DNA from: an uncultured Hyphomicrobiales bacterium
GTDB taxonomy: Bacteria; Pseudomonadota; Alphaproteobacteria; Rhizobiales; Hyphomicrobiaceae
Reading direction: 5' to 3'
Assembly: GCA_902826715.1 (NCBI GenBank)
Contig: CADEFX010000013.1
Span: 1-36,907 of the forward strand
DNA: 36,907 bases
Shown here in pieces: positions 3,514 to 29,811 of the stretch. The notes below the pieces were generated by a model. That model did not search any database, was not told where the DNA came from, and worked only from the letters and a program-made list of their open reading frames with translations. The position numbers and the translations under genes are program-made. Positions within the stretch are counted from its first letter, which is position 1; the number at the start of each line of letters is the position of its first letter.

Positions 3514-4299
3514 CTACTGGCGTCGCGCCCTCGCCTGCTCGCGGCTGGTGCCCACACGCTGCAGCGGCGGCAGTGCACGCGCGATGTCCACGGGAAGCCG
3601 CTCGACCACCGTCACCGAGGCTCCCACCTGCACGCGCCCGGCAAGATCGATCACCTGCCCGTTCAGCATCCGAAAACAACCCGACGACGCGGCTTGACCG
3701 ATGGTCTTGGCGTCGTTGGTGCCGTGAATGCGGTACAGCGTGTTGCCGAGATAAATCGCCTTGGCACCCAGTGGATTGCGTAACCCGCCCGTCATTTTCA
3801 CCGGCAGATTCGGATCGCGCTCCCGCATCTCCGCCGGCGGATGCCAGTCGGGCCATTCGGCAATGCGGGAAATCTTCTCCGTACCTTTCCATGTGAAGCC
3901 TTCCCGCCCGACCGAGATCGGATAGCGGTAGGCCTCGGTGCTCGACGACACGAAGAACAGTTGCTTGCCGTGCGTCTCGATCACGATCGAACCCGGCGTA
4001 TACTGGCTGGCGAACGGCACCAGCTCCGGCGCGATCGGCGACACGGAAGGCCGTGCGCCGCCATCGACCACGTCCGGATTTTCCCGGCCGCCGCGCTCGT
4101 AGGGATCGTCCCAAGGTGAATTCCACCAGCCGCCGCGGCGTCCCCGGCGCGGCTCTTCGTCATCCCATCTCGGGGAGGCATAGCGGTCGTCGTAATAGCG
4201 GCGGAAGCGCGGTCCGGTGTCGCCCCAACCCCAGGACTGCGCCAGCGCGGCATCCAACGGCGTCATAATAAACAATATGAGCATCAGGATGTTACGCAT
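3514..4299 (-). CDS. L,D-transpeptidase (YkuD domain), paralogue 1
   Basis: Exported cell-wall enzyme of 261 residues. L,D-transpeptidases use a catalytic Cys to form meso-DAP cross-links or to attach proteins to peptidoglycan. The signal peptide is residues 1-20 (hydrophobic core MLILFIM, cleavage near ALA-Q). An Arg/Asp/Gly-rich linker covers about 22-85, and the YkuD domain about 100-232 with His192-Gly-Thr and Ser-Ser-Gly-Cys208-Phe-Arg. I chose the ATG at 4299 because it starts the signal peptide and is preceded by AAGGGAAC; the frame is open upstream to 4434 without a signal-like start. Closely resembles the gene at 4879-5592 over the whole catalytic domain. Confidence 0.93.
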   Translation of the reverse strand: MRNILMLILFIMTPLDAALAQSWGWGDTGPRFRRYYDDRYASPRWDDEEPRRGRRGGWWNSPWDDPYERGGRENPDVVDGGARPSVSPIAPELVPFASQYTPGSIVIETHGKQLFFVSSSTEAYRYPISVGREGFTWKGTEKISRIAEWPDWHPPAEMRERDPNLPVKMTGGLRNPLGAKAIYLGNTLYRIHGTNDAKTIGQAASSGCFRMLNGQVIDLAGRVQVGASVTVVERLPVDIARALPPLQRVGTSREQARARRQ

Positions 4300-4468
4300 G
4301 TCCGTTCCCTTGGTGACTTGTGGAGCTATATGGGGGGCCAATTGGGGCAAAACGAGTCTGGGCGCCAGTGTCTTCGAAAATAGTTGACGCCGACCAAAAT
4401 TCCGGACGAAACACGGTGTCCGTTGACTGCGCATGGCCCTGCGCAGGCGTCCTTATGGGGAAGTTGAA

Positions 4469-4858
4469 ATGTCCGAGCATGCTTCCGGCCGTGATCTCGC
4501 TGACGTCGAGAAGGTGGTGTGGACATATCTCGACGGATTGCACGAAGGAGATACGCAGAAGCTGGCCTCTGCGTTTCACGAGGTCAGCCATCTCTATGCA
4601 CTGGGGCCGGACGGCGTCATGGATGTTCCGCGCGCGGACTGGCTGAAAATGGTCTCCGGCCGGCCGTCGCCGAAGTCTCAGGCGCTCGAGCGCACCGATC
4701 GCATCGTCTCGGTCGATTTTTCCGGCCCGGAAACGGCCTGCGTGAAACTCGAGTGCGCGGTCCCGCCGCGCTATTTCACCGACTACCTGACCCTGCTGAA
4801 GTTCAAGGACGGCTGGCGGGTCGTCTCGAAAACATTCCGCACAACCGTCCGCGGCTGA
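4469..4858 (+). CDS. NTF2-like (lumazine-binding-like) protein
   Basis: 129-residue protein of the SnoaL/NTF2-like cone fold, probably the family described as putative lumazine-binding. An N-terminal helix pair (ADVEKVVWTYLDGLHEGD) leads into the typical strand pattern ending DYLTLLKFKDGWRVVSKTF. The start at 4469 (MSEHASGRD) has a GGGGAAG ribosome-binding site 5 bases upstream; a longer frame from 4433 lacks one. It has no signal peptide, so it is probably cytoplasmic. It lies between two paralogous L,D-transpeptidase genes, divergent from the first and convergent with the second. NTF2-like proteins vary widely in function, so no reaction is assigned. Confidence 0.75.
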   Translation: MSEHASGRDLADVEKVVWTYLDGLHEGDTQKLASAFHEVSHLYALGPDGVMDVPRADWLKMVSGRPSPKSQALERTDRIVSVDFSGPETACVKLECAVPPRYFTDYLTLLKFKDGWRVVSKTFRTTVRG

Positions 4859-4878
4859 CGCCCGTCAATTTGCCGTGA

Positions 4879-5592
4879 TCAGTCGTCGTCACGGCTGGTT
4901 CGCGCTACGCGCGACGGCAGGCCTTTCAGCACAACGACCTGCGTGCCCACGCCGACGCGGCGCGACAGGTCCACGACATGGCCGTTCATCATGCGGAAGC
5001 AGCCGGACGAGTTGGCGCGGCCGATGCTCTGGGCGCTGTTCGTGCCATGGATGCGATAGAGCGAGTTGCCGAGATACAGGGCCTTGGCGCCGAGCGGATT
5101 GCGCACGCCGCCCGTCATTTTCTCAGGCAGGCTCCTATCGCGCTCGCGCATTTCCTTGGGCGGATGCCAGTCGGGCCAATCAGCCACACGCGAGATGCGT
5201 TCGCGGCCGGTCCACGAGAAACCTTCGCGTCCCACTGAAATCGGATAACGCAGCGCCGTCGATCGCGACTGGACCAGATAGAGCCTGCGACCCGAGGAAT
5301 CGATCACGATCGTGCCCGGCGCATAGTTGCCCGCAAACGCCACCTTCTCCGGCGACACCGGAGAAACCGATGGACGACCGCCACCATCGAGAAGCTTGGG
5401 GCCGGGACCCCGGCGGCGGCCCTCGCCCGCAAACGGATTAGGGCTGTTCTGCGGCGGCTCTTCGGAGCGCTGCGGAGCTGCATAACCGCCGCGGTCATAT
5501 ATGCTGGGCTGGTGCCACGGAACCCAATTCTGTGCCGCCGCTGGTTGGAATGCCGCAAACGTCAACGCTGCGGCGACGAAAACCCGCTTCAT
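4879..5592 (-). CDS. L,D-transpeptidase (YkuD domain), paralogue 2
   Basis: 237-residue exported cell-wall transpeptidase. The signal peptide MKRVFVAAALTFAAFQPAAA is followed by a short linker rich in Pro, Gly and Arg, and a YkuD domain with His182-Gly-Thr and Ser-Ser-Gly-Cys198-Phe-Arg. The ATG at 5592 has GAGGGA 7 bases upstream; an earlier in-frame start at 5610 is less likely. The stretch from SVSP through GREGF, WPDWHP and NPLGAKA to the catalytic Cys is nearly the same as in the gene at 3514-4299, so the two arose by duplication; the linkers differ in length and composition. The shorter basic/Pro linker here versus the Arg/Asp-rich one there may reflect different wall placement. Confidence 0.93.
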   Translation of the reverse strand: MKRVFVAAALTFAAFQPAAAQNWVPWHQPSIYDRGGYAAPQRSEEPPQNSPNPFAGEGRRRGPGPKLLDGGGRPSVSPVSPEKVAFAGNYAPGTIVIDSSGRRLYLVQSRSTALRYPISVGREGFSWTGRERISRVADWPDWHPPKEMRERDRSLPEKMTGGVRNPLGAKALYLGNSLYRIHGTNSAQSIGRANSSGCFRMMNGHVVDLSRRVGVGTQVVVLKGLPSRVARTSRDDD

Positions 5593-5803
5593 CGTTCGTC
5601 CCTCATGCAAATGGGATGGCCTTGAGCCCCGTATAGAGGGTTAACGCTCCCCGGCCAGTCTTCCTTGTCAACAAGGTTACCGCGCCAGCTCTCGAGCGCA
5701 AAGTCGCGTTGTCGTCACAAGAGGCTCGTGCGGCAACCGGCTTTGGCAGAGACGCCAGATCGGCTAGGTTAATCGCGTGTCGGTGAGGACGTGGGGAACG
5801 ACA

Positions 5804-6580
5804 ATGCAAACGACAGGAAGCGGCCTCAAGCCGGCCGGCACGACCGCCACGTCGATTGGCGTCGCGGCAGCACGAGAGGCCGCCGGCCGGACCGGCGAAA
5901 TCAGGATCAGCCCGCACTCCAACATGGTCTACTGGTGGATCGTCTGGGTCTACGGCTACATCTGCGCGCTCGCGATCAACATCAATCACGTCGGCGTCCA
6001 GCTGTCCGGCAAGCTCATCAAATTCCATCCGTCGGCCTGGGTCGGCCTTTCGTTCCTGCTGCTCGTCGTCTTCGTGATTGTTTTCACCAACGTGCGCGCG
6101 CGCGTGCTGCACACGTTTCTCATCATGGCGACCCTGGCGCTCATCGCCATCGGCATCGACTGGACCTACGGACTCAGCCGCATCGTTGGCTGGGTGCCCG
6201 AGCTGGTCGTCCAGATGAATCTCGCCTTCTACATGGTGTTTTCTACGGCGCTGATGGTGCTGTGGTTCCTCGTCGTGTTCCTCATCGACCGGTCCACCGT
6301 CTGGCGCTTCACGTCGGGCCAGGTGATGGAGACACATCGTCTCGGGCAGGCAGCGGCCCACGTCTACGATACGCGCGGCATGCTGATGAAGCGGATGCCC
6401 GACGACCTCTTCCGGCACAAGATCCTGGGGCTTGGCATTCTCGGCTTCGGTACCGGCGATCTCATCTTCAAGCCGGCAGCGCCCGGCGCCGAGCCCTTCA
6501 TTCTGGAGAACGTCTGGAGGGTCAACGAGCGGCAGCGGGAGATCGAACGCCTCATCATCTCGTCGGGCAGCCCGATCTAA
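5804..6580 (+). CDS. Conserved four-helix membrane protein, function unknown
   Basis: 258-residue inner-membrane protein that I do not recognise. Four hydrophobic segments are visible at about 42-60, 78-97, 101-120 and 138-161, followed by a soluble C-terminal part of about 95 residues containing a basic/aromatic stretch (DRSTVWRFTSGQ) and a Gly-rich patch (ILGLGILGFGTGDL). The N-terminal 40 residues are soluble and low in complexity. The ATG at 5804 is preferred because GGGGAA lies 5 bases upstream; a GTG at 5777 would add nine residues. It stands alone, divergent from the second L,D-transpeptidase and convergent with the hydrolase gene. Confidence 0.75.
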   Translation: MQTTGSGLKPAGTTATSIGVAAAREAAGRTGEIRISPHSNMVYWWIVWVYGYICALAININHVGVQLSGKLIKFHPSAWVGLSFLLLVVFVIVFTNVRARVLHTFLIMATLALIAIGIDWTYGLSRIVGWVPELVVQMNLAFYMVFSTALMVLWFLVVFLIDRSTVWRFTSGQVMETHRLGQAAAHVYDTRGMLMKRMPDDLFRHKILGLGILGFGTGDLIFKPAAPGAEPFILENVWRVNERQREIERLIISSGSPI

Positions 6581-6652
6581 GGTTGGAAGCGGACGCACGG
6601 ACGCCGAAAACGCGTCCACGCGAAATGAACGCTCTAGGCCGTGAACGCGCGG

Positions 6653-7411
6653 TCATCTTGCATGTGCCTTCAGGAATTTGCACACCCTATCGATGGTTCG
6701 AGCTTTCAGCTCCGGGGGCTCCTTCCAGGGATAGACCGTCACCTCGGCATTCGGCGCCAGCGAAGCAATGTCGACACAAGTCTGATAGGCGTGCGCAGGC
6801 GTATCGTCCGGCAGCACGAGTATCGGCGTCTGGCAGTTCCGCGCAAAGTCGCGCGACACGCTGAAAACGAAGTCCGATCGCGCACGGAAGAGGTTCTGCA
6901 GGTAAGTCTCGATGATCGCCATCGGCACCTCTGGCTTCCGCTCGCGGAATTCCTTGGCCCAGCCCACGCGACTATGGTTCACCATCACCTCCGGATCTTC
7001 CGGACGGAAGCCGATAGGCTGGCTGATGACCGCTCCGACGATGCGGTCTGGAGCCCGCTCCATCAGCTTGAGCGCAAAGGAACCGCCGATGCAGTTGCCG
7101 AAGAACAGGAACTGGCGGACGCCCAGGTGATCCATGAGCGCGAGTTGGTCGTTGGCGAAAGCGTCCCACGGCTTGTCGGCCGGCACCGGGCCGGTGGATT
7201 CACCGTTGGTGGCGTTGCGCTGGTCCATGGTGATCACACGGAACTCGGCCTTGGCCTCCTCCATCATGTTGATGACCGCGTTTGGCCAGTTGACGATCCG
7301 CGAGTTCAGGCCGCCGCCCGGAATGGCGAGGAGCGGGAAGCCCGAACCCACCTCCTGGTAGCGGAGGCGAACGCCGTCCTTCTCGTAGAACCCCGTTTTG
7401 ACTGAACTCAA
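6653..7411 (-). CDS. Alpha/beta-hydrolase-fold protein with Cys elbow
   Basis: 252-residue cytoplasmic alpha/beta-hydrolase fold. The oxyanion-hole region PGGG (31-34), the strand and turn VITMDQRNATNG (59-70) and the nucleophile elbow GNCIGGS (105-111) are visible. The elbow residue is Cys107 in place of the usual Ser, and an acid candidate lies at Asp202/Asp203. No His is present at the canonical position after the last strand (VTVYPWKEPPEL, 224-235), so the catalytic triad looks incomplete. The start is TTG at 7411, preceded by AAAGGGGGGG; no ATG fits. It stands alone. Possible roles include a cofactor-free dioxygenase-like enzyme, a thioester-type hydrolase or a non-catalytic binding protein; none can be chosen from sequence alone. 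Confidence 0.82.
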   Translation of the reverse strand: MSSVKTGFYEKDGVRLRYQEVGSGFPLLAIPGGGLNSRIVNWPNAVINMMEEAKAEFRVITMDQRNATNGESTGPVPADKPWDAFANDQLALMDHLGVRQFLFFGNCIGGSFALKLMERAPDRIVGAVISQPIGFRPEDPEVMVNHSRVGWAKEFRERKPEVPMAIIETYLQNLFRARSDFVFSVSRDFARNCQTPILVLPDDTPAHAYQTCVDIASLAPNAEVTVYPWKEPPELKARTIDRVCKFLKAHAR

Positions 7412-7533
7412 GTCACCCCCCCTTTGTTCTCGATCGAGGCGCTGCTTAGGTAATTCTGAGAGCTAACGCAGGTTAGCCGCGAGCGCAGCGATTTGTAAGG
7501 TGGCGATAACAGAGGCTGCGCACCCCGCCGCGC

Positions 7534-8145
7534 TCAGCGAATGAAGAAGTGCCACGTCCCGTCGGCGCCGATGCCGAGCTTATAGTGCGTGTATCGCCCC
7601 GTCTGCTTCATGTCCCGGAACGCCGCCCCCGGGACGAGACGCATGAGCTCGACCTCCTGCGCCGGCGTCAGCGAATCGAGCTTCATTTCGGCGAAGTAGG
7701 GCCACACGTACACCCTGTTGTTCTCGAGATCCTTGCCGATCGGCAGCACCGTGTATCCCGCATCGAGGAGCTGGCCGAGGATGGCGAGGATTTCCCGCCC
7801 CTCGCCGTCCGCCGATACCTGCCGCCAATGCTGGATAGGATCGGGCGTGGGTGTCTCGGCAATAATGGGCTTTATTTCATTGAGCTCGACGGCAATTCGC
7901 AAGTCGTCCATCTTGCCCGAACGCACAGCCGTCAGGATGGCCTCGCGCATTTCCCGCACCGGCTCGGGCAGATCGTCCGTGCCGTAGTGAACGACGGGCG
8001 CCGGCTTCGCCGCCCCGGCGGCGCCGGACTTCTGCCTGACGGTCTGCGCCCAGGCGCTGTCCGTTCGGCAAGCGTGGACAAGCCCCAGAAGCACAAGTAG
8101 GAATATCGCTACAGGAGCTGCCGCAAAGCGCATGTGATGCGGCAT
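7534..8145 (-). CDS. Exported conserved hypothetical protein
   Basis: About 203 residues from the ATG at 8145, with a signal peptide (MRFAAAPVAIFLLVLLGLVHAC) and a likely cleavage after AWA-Q. The mature part has an Ala/Gly/Pro-rich linker, then a helical region (REMREAILTAVRSGKMDDLR), and a C-terminal domain with GKDLENNRVYVWPYFAEMKLD and a final TWHFFIR. I do not recognise a named family; it resembles conserved hypothetical proteins of Rhizobiales. A Cys within the signal region (VHAC) is a poor lipobox because of the His. Other in-frame starts exist at 8133, 8199 and 8205. Divergent from the LysE-type exporter. Confidence 0.75.
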   Translation of the reverse strand: MPHHMRFAAAPVAIFLLVLLGLVHACRTDSAWAQTVRQKSGAAGAAKPAPVVHYGTDDLPEPVREMREAILTAVRSGKMDDLRIAVELNEIKPIIAETPTPDPIQHWRQVSADGEGREILAILGQLLDAGYTVLPIGKDLENNRVYVWPYFAEMKLDSLTPAQEVELMRLVPGAAFRDMKQTGRYTHYKLGIGADGTWHFFIR

Positions 8146-8272
8146 GGGAGGGTTCCATCTTGGATTTGCGGCACCACCATAGGGCGCAGGCTGGCGCATG
8201 CGCAAATGCCCAGCGAACTCTTCCGCGTGGCGCCACGATCGCGACTGTCAGGCATGCGCCGCGGGTAACTTG

Positions 8273-8944
8273 ATGACGTTTGTTCCCAACCCGTTGGTCA
8301 TTCCTGTCGGCATTATCATCGGCGTTCTCATAACTGCACCCGTCGGCCCCATCAACGTTCTGAGCCTGCAGCGCGCTATCGAACGTGGCTTCTGGGGCGG
8401 TGTGGCCGCCGGCCTCGGTGTCGCGCTCGGCGACGGCCTCATCGCTCTCCTGGCAGCGCTGGGCGTGAACGCGGTCTCCGGCGCCATCAGGCATCATCGC
8501 TTTGCCATCCAGTCGGTCGGCGGCTTGGTCCTGCTGCTGCTCGCGGCGCGCCTCTTTTTCACCGAGCCGCGCATCAATCCCGACCAGGGCCAGTCCGGCG
8601 AGGAGACTTCGCTCGGAGATTTCGCTTGGGACATCCCGCAGATGTTCTTCCTCACCATCACCAATCCCGGCGCGGTGCTCGGCCTGTTCGCCGTTTTCAG
8701 CGGCGTCGGCACCTTCGTTGAACTCGAAACCAACGTCGATGTGCTGACCATGGTCGCGGCCATCATGGGTGGCAGCCTGGTCTCATGGATCGCCTTGTCG
8801 CATCTCATCAGCAGCATCCGGCACCACCTGGACCTTAACAAGCTGCGCCTCATCAATCGGGGCGCCGGCGTGCTGATGTTCGGCTTCGGCCTGATGCTCC
8901 TGGGCGAGGTCATGTTGAAGGGGCCTGCAATCGTACCGGGGTAG
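8273..8944 (+). CDS. LysE/RhtB-family exporter
   Basis: 223-residue inner-membrane protein with about six hydrophobic segments. The N-terminal signature PVGPINVLSLQRAIERGFWGG and the following Gly-rich helix AAGLGVALGDGLIAL are typical of the LysE/RhtB translocators, which export amino acids or other small metabolites by exchange with protons. I place the start at 8273 (MTFVPNPLV), just before the first membrane segment; the frame stays open upstream over a non-hydrophobic stretch. Substrate cannot be told. Convergent with the racemase-like gene, which is suggestive for amino-acid metabolism but not evidence of a pathway. Confidence 0.88.
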   Translation: MTFVPNPLVIPVGIIIGVLITAPVGPINVLSLQRAIERGFWGGVAAGLGVALGDGLIALLAALGVNAVSGAIRHHRFAIQSVGGLVLLLLAARLFFTEPRINPDQGQSGEETSLGDFAWDIPQMFFLTITNPGAVLGLFAVFSGVGTFVELETNVDVLTMVAAIMGGSLVSWIALSHLISSIRHHLDLNKLRLINRGAGVLMFGFGLMLLGEVMLKGPAIVPG

Positions 8945-8972
8945 ATGTCAGCTCAGGGCACCCGGCCCAGAC

Positions 8973-9662
8973 CTACGCAAACGCCCACTCCACCACTGCC
9001 TGGCAATGCAGCTCAGTCGTGGAGAACGTCACGATGCTTGTATCGTCTGGCCGGATCAGCAGCGGAATCTCGGTGCATCCGAGAATGACGCCCTGGGCAC
9101 CTCGGCTCTGCAGACCTTTCATGATCTCGACGTAGCGCCGGCGGGTCTCGTCGCGGAAGATGTTATGGGCGAGTTCGCGCTGGATGCTGTCATGGATGTA
9201 CGCGCGCTCCGCATCGTTCGGGATCATCGTCGTGATGCCGTAACGCGCCAGAACGTCGGGATAGAAATTTTGCTCCATCGTGTCGCGCACGCCGAGCAGC
9301 GCAACTTTCTCCAATCCCGCTGATTGGATCTTGCGCGCCGTCGCATCTGCAATGTGCAGGAACGGGATAGAGATCTCCCGCTCGACCTGCGGCACGAACT
9401 GGTGCGCACCGTTGCAGCAGAGGGCGATGAAGTCGGCGCCCGCCCGTTCGACCCTCTGCGCGGCGGCGAGAAGTATGCTACGCGCCGCCTCCTCGTCCCT
9501 CCGGCTCGTCGCCTGCGCATACCCCTCCCGGTTCACGCTCGCCAGAACGAGATCGGCGGAATTGGCGCCACCGAGCCGCTCTTGCACGATCTCGTTGAGC
9601 CGGCGGTAGTATTCGGCCGTCGATATCCAGGTCAGCCCGCCGATCAGACCGATCCTCTGCAT
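8973..9662 (-). CDS. Aspartate/glutamate racemase-family protein
   Basis: 229-residue member of the Asp/Glu racemase superfamily, cofactor-independent enzymes using two Cys acid-base residues. The N-terminal IGLIGGLTWISTAEYY is the family start. The first Cys site reads LCCNGAHQF (Cys82/Cys83, Asn84, His87), where the common form is CNTAH; the second is LGCTEIPLL with Cys196. Both halves are therefore present. The Gly in place of Thr in the first motif may alter substrate. Alternatives within the superfamily are glutamate racemase, hydantoin racemase and maleate isomerase; the GGL-W-STA start and GCTEIP favour the aspartate racemase group. Confidence 0.88.
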   Translation of the reverse strand: MQRIGLIGGLTWISTAEYYRRLNEIVQERLGGANSADLVLASVNREGYAQATSRRDEEAARSILLAAAQRVERAGADFIALCCNGAHQFVPQVEREISIPFLHIADATARKIQSAGLEKVALLGVRDTMEQNFYPDVLARYGITTMIPNDAERAYIHDSIQRELAHNIFRDETRRRYVEIMKGLQSRGAQGVILGCTEIPLLIRPDDTSIVTFSTTELHCQAVVEWAFA

Positions 9663-9801
9663 TGCCCGGCTCCGGATGATTGCGCGCCGCCTGCTCAGAT
9701 TCTAGGCGAGAAGACCGATCCTCGGCAACATCGGCCGAGCGGCTCTTCGCGGATGGCGCTGCAATCGTGCCCGCCAACGACTGCCGTTGCGTCCGCGCAG
9801 G

Positions 9802-10053
9802 CTAATGGGCCGCGCGGGGCAGCGTGAACTCGCCTGACCGGATGCGCGTACCAAGACCGGTGGCCAGCACCGCCACGGCATCCTCGCCGTAGGCCGCCAC
9901 GAGGTCGCTCAAGGCCGTGAACAGCGCCGCATAAGCCATATGCTCCGGCGCCAGCCCGCTCGCGGCGCCGTCCTCCCACGCCTGCAAAATGAAATGCAGT
10001 GCTTTCAGCGAATCATCGTCGCTTGCGGCAAGGCCGAAGTCGTCCAGGTCCAT
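9802..10053 (-). CDS. Small conserved hypothetical protein
   Basis: 83-residue acidic, largely helical protein. It begins MDLDDFGLAASDDDSLKAL and ends with a short basic stretch (TRIRSGEFTLPRAAH). No signal peptide or membrane segment is seen. The ATG at 10053 has a GGGGG tract 4 bases upstream, which supports translation. It lies alone between the racemase-like gene and a palindromic repeat. I do not recognise the family. Confidence 0.6.
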   Translation of the reverse strand: MDLDDFGLAASDDDSLKALHFILQAWEDGAASGLAPEHMAYAALFTALSDLVAAYGEDAVAVLATGLGTRIRSGEFTLPRAAH

Positions 10054-10127
10054 GATCCCCCAGTCCCTTCAAAGTCACGTTCCGCGATGGCGACAGACGC
10101 CGATTCCAGAGCCGCTTGCTCTTGTGC

Positions 10128-10275
10128 CTAGAGCGATCGTTTCACATGGAAGCGCTTCCCGCTTTCATGTGAAGCGTGAATCGCACTCCAAATGTATGAA
10201 ATAGAGCAGGATTCACGTTTCGGCCGATGTGTCTCGTGTGAGGCGAGGCATTCCATCCGAAACGATCCTGCTCTA
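10128..10275. repeat. Mosaic palindromic intergenic element
   Basis: 148-bp non-coding element. It contains a strong hairpin, with TTCACATGGAAGCG (10141-10154) pairing with CGCTTTCATGTGAA (10160-10173) around a 5-base loop with one G-T pair. A second inverted pair joins 10203-10223 (AGAGCAGGATTCACGTTTCGG) and 10251-10274 on the other strand (AGAGCAGGATCGTTTCGG). The left end (AGAGCGATCGTTTC at 10130) is a third copy of the same unit. This layout is like the intergenic mosaic elements common in Rhizobiales chromosomes. It fills most of the 284-bp gap at 10054-10337; no gene is seen in the rest. Confidence 0.75.
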
Positions 10276-10337
10276 GCACAGCCACGCCGACGTGCGGCAG
10301 CGGCCTGTCGAAAAGGTGAATGAGCAACCCTACCAGC

Positions 10338-10715
10338 TCACGGCACGCTTTTGACGAGTGCATCCGAGAGTTGCGTTCCTTCCGCGAGGAAGCGGTCGAT
10401 GGCCGTCTGCGCGGACGGCGTGCACGTCTGGTAAGTGCGGCTGTAGCTGCGGTAACCGGTATTAAAGCTGCGCGTCAGCTTGGCCCGGCGCAACGCGGAC
10501 GATCCTTCGCCCTCCATGAGGTCACGCATGCGCTCGCGCCAGAGCTGGCCGTCACTGTTGCCGCACAGTTCGCGCAGATAGTGAACGGCACCCAGAATCT
10601 CCGATAGGCGCAACAGCCTTTCGTCGTAGGGCTTGACGTCCTGCGCGCGCGCTGTCGCGGCCGGGAGAAACACCAGCGCCAGGCAAACGGCAAGATGTGA
10701 TCCGCGTCGAGTCAT
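10338..10715 (-). CDS. TIGR02301-family exported protein
   Basis: 125-residue protein with a signal peptide (MTRRGSHLAVCLALVFLPAA, cleavage near ARA-Q). The mature part matches from memory the uncharacterised alphaproteobacterial family TIGR02301: YDERLLRLSEILGAVHYLRELCG, then WRERM, RRAKLTRSFNTGYRSY and a Cys in YQTCTPSA. Two Cys residues in the mature protein could form a disulfide. The ATG at 10715 starts the signal peptide; an ATG at 10748 would overlap the Nudix gene's end by 11 bases and add 11 hydrophilic residues. It is the downstream partner of the Nudix gene, and this pair is often adjacent in the order as I recall it. Function unknown. Confidence 0.85.
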   Translation of the reverse strand: MTRRGSHLAVCLALVFLPAATARAQDVKPYDERLLRLSEILGAVHYLRELCGNSDGQLWRERMRDLMEGEGSSALRRAKLTRSFNTGYRSYSRTYQTCTPSAQTAIDRFLAEGTQLSDALVKSVP

Positions 10716-26331: not shown

Positions 26332-26472
26332 GTGTCATCCTCGCGCTTGTCGCGAGGACCCATAGCTCCGCGAGTCCGGAATGCAGATGGTTGGAGGAAG
26401 CGACGACGCGCGCTCCAACAACGCTACGCCCTGTCGCGCGATAGATCCTCGGACCAAGTCCGAGGATGACAC
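26332..26472. repeat. Inverted-repeat intergenic element
   Basis: The left arm GTGTCATCCTCGCGCTTGTC (continuing GCGAGGA) and the right arm ending GAGGATGACAC are inverted copies of one unit: the reverse complement of the right arm begins GTGTCATCCTCGGACTTGGT. Each arm also forms its own hairpin (CCTCGCG/CGCGAGG and CCTCGGAC/GTCCGAGG). The 80-bp middle has no reading frame of note. It is similar to a TGTCATCC-type palindromic unit that I recall in many alphaproteobacterial intergenic regions. Confidence 0.75.
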
Positions 26473-26513
26473 TTGTATTTGTTGTGCCGCCTCAGCTTGA
26501 GGACGCCAGTCGA

Positions 26514-26580
26514 CTAAACCAGCCTGCTCTGCTCCACCGCCGCCGCAATAAAACTCGCGAACAGCGGATACGGATCGAAC
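26514..26580 (-). pseudogene. Displaced duplicate of the pyrG 3' end
   Basis: 67-bp copy of the last 22 codons (with stop) of pyrG, matching 27674-27740 at 64 positions. The first 51 bp from the stop codon are identical. The three differences are at 26565, 26570 and 26574: one is synonymous, one turns His into Tyr and one Glu into Asp, giving FDPYPLFASF in place of [10 protein letters not shown]. It has no start and is preceded by unrelated sequence. It is best explained as a gene end displaced by insertion of the SIR2-like segment, with the 51-bp identity acting as the recombination core. Confidence 0.85.
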
Positions 26581-26607
26581 AGCCACCACGCCTTTAAGGC
26601 CCCAAAG

Positions 26608-27666
26608 CTAATCGGCGCTTAGAGTGCGCCGATATTGGCGAATGAACTCGACACATTTGCAATCCGACAAGGACAGTGTGGGCTCTCTGACCGATCCAGA
26701 CGAAAACATAAGCTTGAGTTTTCTCTGCACGCTCGCCTTGTCAGACTCCGACATACCGTGTGCCGTACCAAAGATTGCCCTTCGCCTTTTTAGCTCCGGC
26801 ATCGACCCCGATGAGGCGTCACGCAGTACATCCAGATTCTGCAGGTGATAAGCGCACCCGAGGAAAACGACAATCTCCGCGTTTGCTACGCTCTCTCTAA
26901 TTGCAGATTGCAATTTCTCGTCTGCCATTTGCTCCGCAAACGTTCTGATGCCGGCGGCCAGATGCAGATACCTGCCCTCGGCCTCACTTCCAAAGTCCGC
27001 CTGAGGCGAACCACCAACTGGCACGTGCAGCCTTCCAACAGTGCCGTAAGGTTTGAGTATTCGAACAGTCGCCAGCAGCTGGATAGCTCGGCTGGCAGGC
27101 AAGTCGTACAGGCTCGTGAGAGCATGAAACATAACTTGCTCGAAGCAGCGGTCGTAGTTGAAGTCAATCACAGAAAGCCGACTTAAGGCCGCCTCGATAT
27201 CTCCGACCCCCACCTTCTCGAATAGAAGCTGAGCAAACTCTTGGTACCAAGTATCGTCAAGTGCGGCAGGCTTAAGTGAAGAAATTCGTGCTCGCTTGTC
27301 TTCGATCAAGTTCGACGCTCGCTCTCCGGCGAGAATGAGATGTACAAGCCCTGCTTTTGCTAGCGTTGCAATGTCCGGATTATCGCGCCGCACATCGAGG
27401 AAATTATCTATTGAACTCGCGAAGACGATACCCTTCGACAGCTGTCGCGAGGCTGTCAGGATGCGTTGTCTATTACCCTTGAATTCATCAAGGCGCTGTA
27501 TCTCCGAAAAGATCGGTTGATTGTCTCGCGTGTACTTTAGGTCGTGGTATTCAGTTTCAACGCGCATAAGGTCGGCAATTTGAGCCTTTAACGTTGGCCC
27601 AAGCGGAAGTCGAACTTCACTACTTGCCCCCGCCCCCAAAATTAGCGTTGTCTTGCGCCTGAGCAT
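26608..27666 (-). CDS. SIR2-like domain protein (candidate defence gene)
   Basis: 352-residue protein. The N-terminal LILGAGASSEVRLPLG (8-22) is the nucleotide-binding start of SIR2-like domains. SSIDNFL (84-90), IDFNYDR (167-173, Asn170) and VVFLGCAYHLQNLD (266-279) match the motifs I recall from SIR2-like proteins that degrade NAD in anti-phage systems. The catalytic His normally found in a K-x-H-G sequence is Tyr207 here (KPYGTVG). No second domain or membrane segment is seen. The ATG at 27666 lies 7 bp after the pyrG stop, with no room for a promoter, so expression would depend on pyrG. Two counted 60-base rows give 47-48% GC against 63% in a row of pyrG. It is flanked by direct repeats of the pyrG 3' end and appears acquired. 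Confidence 0.8.
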   Translation of the reverse strand: MLRRKTTLILGAGASSEVRLPLGPTLKAQIADLMRVETEYHDLKYTRDNQPIFSEIQRLDEFKGNRQRILTASRQLSKGIVFASSIDNFLDVRRDNPDIATLAKAGLVHLILAGERASNLIEDKRARISSLKPAALDDTWYQEFAQLLFEKVGVGDIEAALSRLSVIDFNYDRCFEQVMFHALTSLYDLPASRAIQLLATVRILKPYGTVGRLHVPVGGSPQADFGSEAEGRYLHLAAGIRTFAEQMADEKLQSAIRESVANAEIVVFLGCAYHLQNLDVLRDASSGSMPELKRRRAIFGTAHGMSESDKASVQRKLKLMFSSGSVREPTLSLSDCKCVEFIRQYRRTLSAD

Positions 27667-27673
27667 CGCACGC

Positions 27674-29811
<2,138 letters not shown>

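Follow-up and report, generated by a model that had tools for sequence, protein, structure and literature searches.

A SIR2-like gene at the 3′ end of pyrG

The window analysed here is a stretch of 36,907 nt from an uncultured Hyphomicrobiales bacterium of the family Hyphomicrobiaceae (GenBank assembly GCA_902826715.1, contig CADEFX010000013.1). On its reverse strand, translation, reading frame and a fold model identified a SIR2-like gene at positions 26,608–27,666, which starts with an ATG at 27,666 and encodes 352 amino acids followed by a stop codon. An alternative start for the same frame, a TTG at 27,708, lies inside pyrG (CTP synthase; 27,674–29,326, reverse strand), the host gene, whose stop codon is found 7 nt before the SIR2-like ATG. 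The 3′ end of pyrG is present twice as a direct repeat of 70 nt with 94% identity and a spacing of 1160. The upstream, attL-like copy (27,671–27,740, reverse strand) is the present intact pyrG end, and the downstream, attR-like copy (26,511–26,580, reverse strand) bounds an insert of about 1.1 kb (26,581–27,670, reverse strand). A duplicated gene end is a usual mark of an island, and pyrG was full length despite the insert, the flanking duplication keeping the target gene whole as in integrative elements. This repeat was absent from an earlier note on the same DNA. An imperfect inverted repeat of 35 nt (77%; 26,332–26,366 and 26,438–26,472) was also seen just past the downstream pyrG-end copy.

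The SIR2-like gene is the sole cargo and fills the insert, with 27 nt between its stop and one repeat and 4 nt between its start and the other; the remaining frames, of at most 113 aa, overlap it. The G+C content of the insert, 0.528 against 0.641, was lower than in every one of 671 overlapping stretches of equal size elsewhere in the window, and third-position G+C was 0.56 in the SIR2-like gene versus 0.81 in pyrG. No recombinase or integrase was found within the insert. The genome to which the window belongs gave eight tyrosine-recombinase matches, six of them above the cut-off, all on other contigs. From its position, the SIR2-like gene may be expressed as a tail of pyrG.

The 70-mer was matched in 98 of the 102 genomes of the family, and among the matches listed a strong second copy was present only here. 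In the window's own genome the 70-mer matched six times, and the three matches listed, the third of them 17 nt long, revealed no donor element carrying a pyrG-type site. A protein search with the pyrG C-terminus gave matches in 84 of the 102 family genomes, among which a second copy adjoining pyrG occurred, besides the window, only in genome G066; the pyrG end was thus not borne out as a frequent insertion site. The G066 locus (L186; G066:C8:97555-98688), in another genus of the family, has a small insert at the pyrG 3′ end in which a diverged copy of the last 70 pyrG codons encloses different short frames. Other C-terminus matches were two on different contigs in G078 and one weak match elsewhere in each of G066 and G094. 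An empty site was not shown at the DNA level: among the 102 genomes, no other belongs to the window's genus, and the 511 nt past the downstream repeat gave only matches of at most 47 nt in the 29 other pyrG loci tested.

The encoded protein has a predicted SIR2 fold

The translation contains GAGAS (residues 11–15), SIDNFL (85–90) and FNYDR (169–173), the last including Asn170 (codon 27,157–27,159, reverse strand), which translation and profile alignment mark as the equivalent of the catalytic Asn. It also contains LKPYGTVG with Lys205 (27,052–27,054, reverse strand; placed by the family alignment), Pro206, Tyr207 (27,046–27,048, reverse strand) and Gly208. The earlier note had described a SIR2-like protein with GAGAS, S-I-D-x-F-L, F-N-Y-D-R, KPYGTVG and Asn170, and all of these were present. 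Searches with the single sequence gave weak signals. Pfam SIR2_2 (PF13289) was matched with an E-value of 0.039 and 14.5 bits, short of the curated cut-off of 24.5, and PADLOC gave weak matches to Aga_SIR2 (E 1.6e-4) and DruL (0.051). The protein had no match in NCBIfam or PHROGs, and a phmmer search of the PDB returned only two ribosomal proteins (E 0.51 and 1.8), which were taken as chance.

An AlphaFold2 model built from 116 aligned sequences reached a mean pLDDT of 91.9, and a VIA fold comparison ranked SIR2 proteins at the top: PsSIR2 of SIR2-HerA (Z 14.9), BcThsA (14.2) and SPARSA (14.0), followed by DSR2 (13.9), KomC (13.7) and the Sir2-NAD structure 1ici (13.5). The aligned ranges ran from residue 1 or 2 to 347–352. 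In the model, a single SIR2 domain makes up the whole protein, with helices inserted at about residues 45–163. Membership of the SIR2 group is weak by single sequence and firm by the predicted model, and the protein combines the SIR2 fold with the GAGxS and NYD motifs that define the superfamily. Since the true sirtuins SIRT5 (Z 13.1) and CobB (12.8) scored nearly as high, the fold alone tells defence SIR2 proteins and deacylases poorly apart. The comparison with known defence SIR2 domains that the earlier note had proposed came out in favour of SIR2, and its profile search did so in part: the best Pfam family, SIR2_2, stayed below its cut-off, but a profile of the family described below found KomC at E 4.6e-6.

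A tyrosine stands at the catalytic-histidine position throughout a family

To collect relatives, genomes, plasmids and viral contigs were searched. Of 103 genomes from the window's taxonomic family, 10 contained a member, as did 15 of 397 from the order and 8 of 398 from the phylum, each count including the window's own genome; members also occurred in 16 plasmid records (10 Agrobacterium, 4 Rhizobium and 2 Hymenobacter). A genome-contig scan confirmed 325 stretches, of which 80 were kept. The viral-contig scan gave 44 family members with the alignment as query and nothing with the single window protein, and annotated phage records held no family match. The resulting alignment has 150 rows, with some genomes represented twice; one truncated row (L170) leaves 149 that can be scored at positions 205 and 207.

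Position 207 is Tyr in 146 of the 149 rows, Phe in two and Leu in one, mostly within H-P-Y-G. Position 205 is His in 128, Arg in 18, Tyr in two and Lys in one, and the only Lys is that of the window protein. Ser15, Asp87, Glu115, Asn170, Asp172, Arg173, Glu245 and Asn277 were each kept in 140 to 150 of the 150 rows, and Asp87, Glu115, Asn170, Asp172 and Arg173 in all 150, although the FNYDR columns are biased in the genome-contig (80 kept) and viral-contig (44) rows because both scans required that pattern. In the 26 rows collected free of the pattern, Asp87, Lys104, Glu115, Trp140, Asn170, Asp172, Arg173 and Glu245 were invariant (26/26) and Tyr207 was present in 24. A decayed protein would not keep the Tyr together with the key residues, and Tyr207 is therefore a rule of the family rather than a lesion. 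The earlier note had taken the Tyr as the unusual residue, which was not upheld: Tyr207 is the norm, and what is rare in the window protein is Lys205 (1/149). Its suggestion of a subfamily using other residues fits the retention of Tyr207 alongside the eight conserved residues. One relative, L028, reads FNRDR and HPLG and may be a decayed member. In our judgement from the alignment, the family is widespread and appears conserved enough to be functional.

The place of Tyr207 was compared with two references. In a profile search of the PDB, the family HPYG was aligned to K-F-H-G of KomC, so that Tyr207 falls on His146, which is the residue altered in PDB entry 9xvc. A profile–profile alignment with 26 Pfam SIR2_2 stretches put LKPYGTVG on LLKMHGTI, that is, KPYG on K-x-H-G. 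The two alignments agree and confirm, at the level of sequence, the earlier claim that Tyr207 occupies the place of the catalytic His in SIR2 NADases. An x-x-H-G His after the NYD motif is a hallmark of SIR2_2 proteins, and the window protein has Tyr207 instead. Among the best-scoring 30 SIR2_2 loci, taken one per genome from 200 genomes of the phylum, the NYD motif was readable in 26 and unreadable in four. The expected x-x-H-G was found in 25 of the 26, the other being a Q-H-G of unsure kind (L274), and none of the 26 had Tyr-Gly in place of His-Gly. A plain shift of the catalytic His by two residues was rejected, because position 205 sits on the Lys of K-x-H-G.

Every scorable row has a histidine at position 205 or 274

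Codon 26,845–26,847 (reverse strand) encodes His274, which the family alignment and tree mark as a candidate displaced His. All 149 scorable rows have His at 205 or 274, and among ten His-rich columns only these two form a pair that covers every row. His274 was present in 21 of the 21 rows that lack His205, the window protein among them, versus 57 of the 128 rows with His205. A tree was made by a quick method from 144 rows, after dropping five repeats and L170, and had 140 tips. The 19 tips without His205 fall in eight separate clades, every one with His274, and random clades of equal sizes gave the all-His274 pattern in 34 of 20,000 placements. When 841 column-residue features were ranked against the loss of His205 by Fisher's test, His274 came only fourth, after Asn168, Ala80 and Leu76, and much of the association thus follows descent; among the 12 top-ranked features listed, it alone was present in 21/21.

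The pattern was spotted post hoc, nine other His-rich columns could have paired with 205, and the evidence is one of sequence. For these reasons we treat as a hypothesis a displaced His, and with it a SIR2 branch that would work with Tyr plus a His elsewhere, and regard His274 as a candidate for another His in the pocket. Position 274 aligns with the residue directly before the Asp of G-Y-S-L-S-D in KomC. In human FAM118B, according to the available part of PMC12700824, Asp D255 is modelled next to the catalytic His, and D255 would correspond to the loop of position 274.

Partner genes and known SIR2 systems

To look for partners, frames of at least 60 aa within 4 kb of the family genes were grouped into clusters by BLAST (E 1e-8) at 145 loci. 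This set includes more than one locus from some genomes and loci truncated at contig ends, and distant or non-adjacent partners would escape the design. No cluster within 1.5 kb occurred in more than 6 of the 145 loci, and by eye the larger clusters look like phage genes, serine recombinases or a uvrA site. No conserved partner was therefore found across these loci, in line with the single-domain protein and lack of a visible sensor partner described in the earlier note.

Several defence systems share features with the protein. The fold of ThsA (Thoeris) is similar (Z 14.2) and Asn170 is equivalent to ThsA Asn112, but ThsA His152 is Tyr here. ThsA carries a C-terminal SLOG domain (excerpts of PMC7272460 and PMC10973363), whereas the window protein is all SIR2 domain, and it has no recurrent ThsB-like neighbour. 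The SIR2 subunit of SIR2-HerA (Nezha, GAO_19) was the best fold match (Z 14.9); that system requires a second protein (PMC11514479, in part), and none recurs in the family or stands in the one-gene insert, where the upstream neighbour is pyrG rather than a HerA gene. KomC (Kongming) was the top match of the PDB profile search and, like the window protein, has one SIR2 domain, but it has His146 in place of the Tyr, and PDB titles show a KomBC complex. DSR2 shares the SIR2 fold (Z 13.9) but carries a C-terminal sensor domain (PMC10973363, in the portion available), and its His171 is Tyr here. By architecture the protein is not ThsA, DSR2, SIR2-HerA or Kongming.

AbiH (PF14253), which is named after abortive infection and defends alone, is the nearest named one-gene relative. 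Its motif order, FNYT then x-I-H-G, resembles FNYD then H-P-Y-G in the family, and 7 of 116 family members matched PF14253 at E ≤ 0.01 (47 of 116 matched SIR2_2 at the same threshold). An hhalign comparison put the family HPYG on H-I-H-G and Y-I-H-G of two AbiH proteins with a probability of 15% and an E-value of 0.0018, the AbiH profile consisting of these two sequences, the full yield of a profile search over 249 genomes. In AbiH, however, the place of Tyr207 is still taken by His. Since the window protein had no PF14253 match at E ≤ 10, it is not filed under AbiH, but by analogy its mode of action is probably that of a single-gene abortive infection protein. Among the matches listed, titles and abstract openings of the open-licence literature did not name this Tyr family; the searches covered Tyr-type, lone and integron-borne SIR2 proteins, FAM118, AbiH, one-gene non-autonomous cassettes and a pyrG attachment site.

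Relatives as cargo of other inserts

Two relatives were found in comparable positions. In a genome of another family (L043, G192), the relative is the only frame picked between duplicated gene 3′ ends, again with a spacing of 1160, and the target gene looks by eye like an XRE-type regulator. In L047 (G249), a tRNA-Asn 3′ end stands on either side, the relative was the single frame picked in between, and the interior holds additional arm-like repeats. A third relative (L116, in a Rubrivivax MAG) is a cassette in an integron-like array (4218–10600), between two sites that we take to be attC-like. Flanking repeats as a general feature of the family were not upheld. A flanking-repeat score of at least 20 was reached by 8 of 145 loci versus 9 of 679 control positions, and inspection leaves three of the eight. 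The repeats at L053, L117, L064 and L093 (and, weaker, at L088, L124 and L050) were judged by eye to be dispersed or chance repeats, and only the window, L043 and L047 were therefore counted as gene-end duplications.

Four separate genomes carry the relative next to the 3′ end of a gene that by eye is uvrA. The two genes run the same way in L033, at a distance of about 110 nt, and in L045, at about 11 nt; they converge in L039, about 16 nt apart, and in L072, at most 10 nt apart. No second uvrA-end copy was seen on the far side in any of the four. The end of uvrA may be a site that the gene prefers. For most relatives, the entry route has left no trace. A tree neighbour of the window protein in another genus (L034; G013:C64, 7872–8882 and 10,686–12,317) lies about 1.8 kb upstream of pyrG.

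Discussion

We give about an even chance to the reading that the SIR2-like gene encodes a single-gene, NAD-consuming SIR2-fold defence effector of the abortive-infection type and makes up the whole cargo of a very small cassette integrated at the pyrG end; defence, NAD cleavage and mobility are each what we infer. Transcription and translation of pyrG would run on into the gene as a tail. Its product would by itself sense a phage cue, perhaps via the helical insertion at about residues 45–163, and would then cleave NAD using Asn170. Tyr207 would sit at the ribose, and the acid-base group would be His274, or His205 in most relatives. More tentatively, the family could represent a widespread branch of SIR2 proteins with a relocated catalytic His, Tyr having taken its place and the chemistry being carried by His205 or His274. 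It would serve as a one-gene immune effector that spreads in a nearly minimal, recombinase-less cassette and is expressed as the tail of a host gene.

The Tyr could instead mark a protein that binds NAD, or a signal of the ADP-ribose type, and works through a change of shape or oligomerization without cleavage, which we consider rather unlikely. In SIRT1, a His-to-Tyr change at the same site (H363Y) is a loss of function (PMC2642761, in the part available). For ThsA, the accessible portion of PMC7272460 reports that N112A and H152A each abolish NAD cleavage and that H152A does not bind NAD either, though it also loses the proper oligomer. Since these mutants are inactive, the natural Tyr may mean that no cleavage takes place. 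A DSR2 N133A/H171A double mutant is a dead control in the excerpted text of PMC10973363. The Phe at 207 in 2 of 149 rows further suggests that the hydroxyl may be dispensable. The near-invariance of Asn170, Asp172, Arg173 and Glu245, however, suggests chemistry, as does the retention of at least one of the two His (205 or 274) in every one of the 149 rows. An NAD-dependent enzyme for ADP-ribosyl transfer, production of a signal molecule or protein deacylation, rather than for bulk NAD depletion, seems to us improbable. With Tyr standing in for the base, transfer might be favoured at the expense of hydrolysis, and the true sirtuins match the model nearly as well as the defence proteins, but the top-ranked folds (PsSIR2, ThsA, SPARSA, DSR2 and KomC) come from defence systems, and the 145 loci show no conserved adjacent partner or target gene.

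The last alternative concerns the locus itself. The insert could be the remnant of a larger pyrG island from which the integrase was deleted, leaving the SIR2-like gene as a passenger, and we regard this as very unlikely. Duplicated gene ends are usual for islands and the insert has no integrase, yet the frame is open and has the family-invariant residues, and the close fit of the repeats around the gene (27 nt past its stop, 4 nt ahead of its start), with a spacing of 1160 that recurs in L043, is tidy for a random deletion. Under the preferred reading of a one-gene effector in an integrated cassette, the insert resembles islands at gene 3′ ends in that the end of a conserved gene is duplicated around it, and the L116 relative extends the likeness to integron cassettes; it differs from both in being about 1.1 kb long with one gene and no recombinase.

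In our judgement, the fold is a known one, the family departs from the solved SIR2 effectors at the key residue, and the cassette is strikingly small. Should the family prove to cleave NAD, the catalytic His accepted for SIR2 NADases would be replaceable, and the calling of SIR2 proteins as inactive from their motifs would need to be revised. If it does not, a large conserved class of SIR2 proteins would work without cleavage. The cassettes suggest a route by which one immune gene could travel without its own recombinase.

The surroundings of further relatives varied. On a plasmid of R. ruizarguesonis the relative is near two Ku genes and a terminase, on pAt of A. fabrum a restriction endonuclease and an ATP-dependent helicase and endonuclease are encoded no more than 8 kb away, and on a plasmid of R. 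acidisoli it is surrounded by an IS66 element and genes for the transport of sugars and phosphate. On a set of related viral contigs (L131, L146, L149, L152, L157 and L165), the gene lies 58–209 nt from what by eye is an apparent major capsid gene, and in L165 the displayed frame is on the opposite strand.
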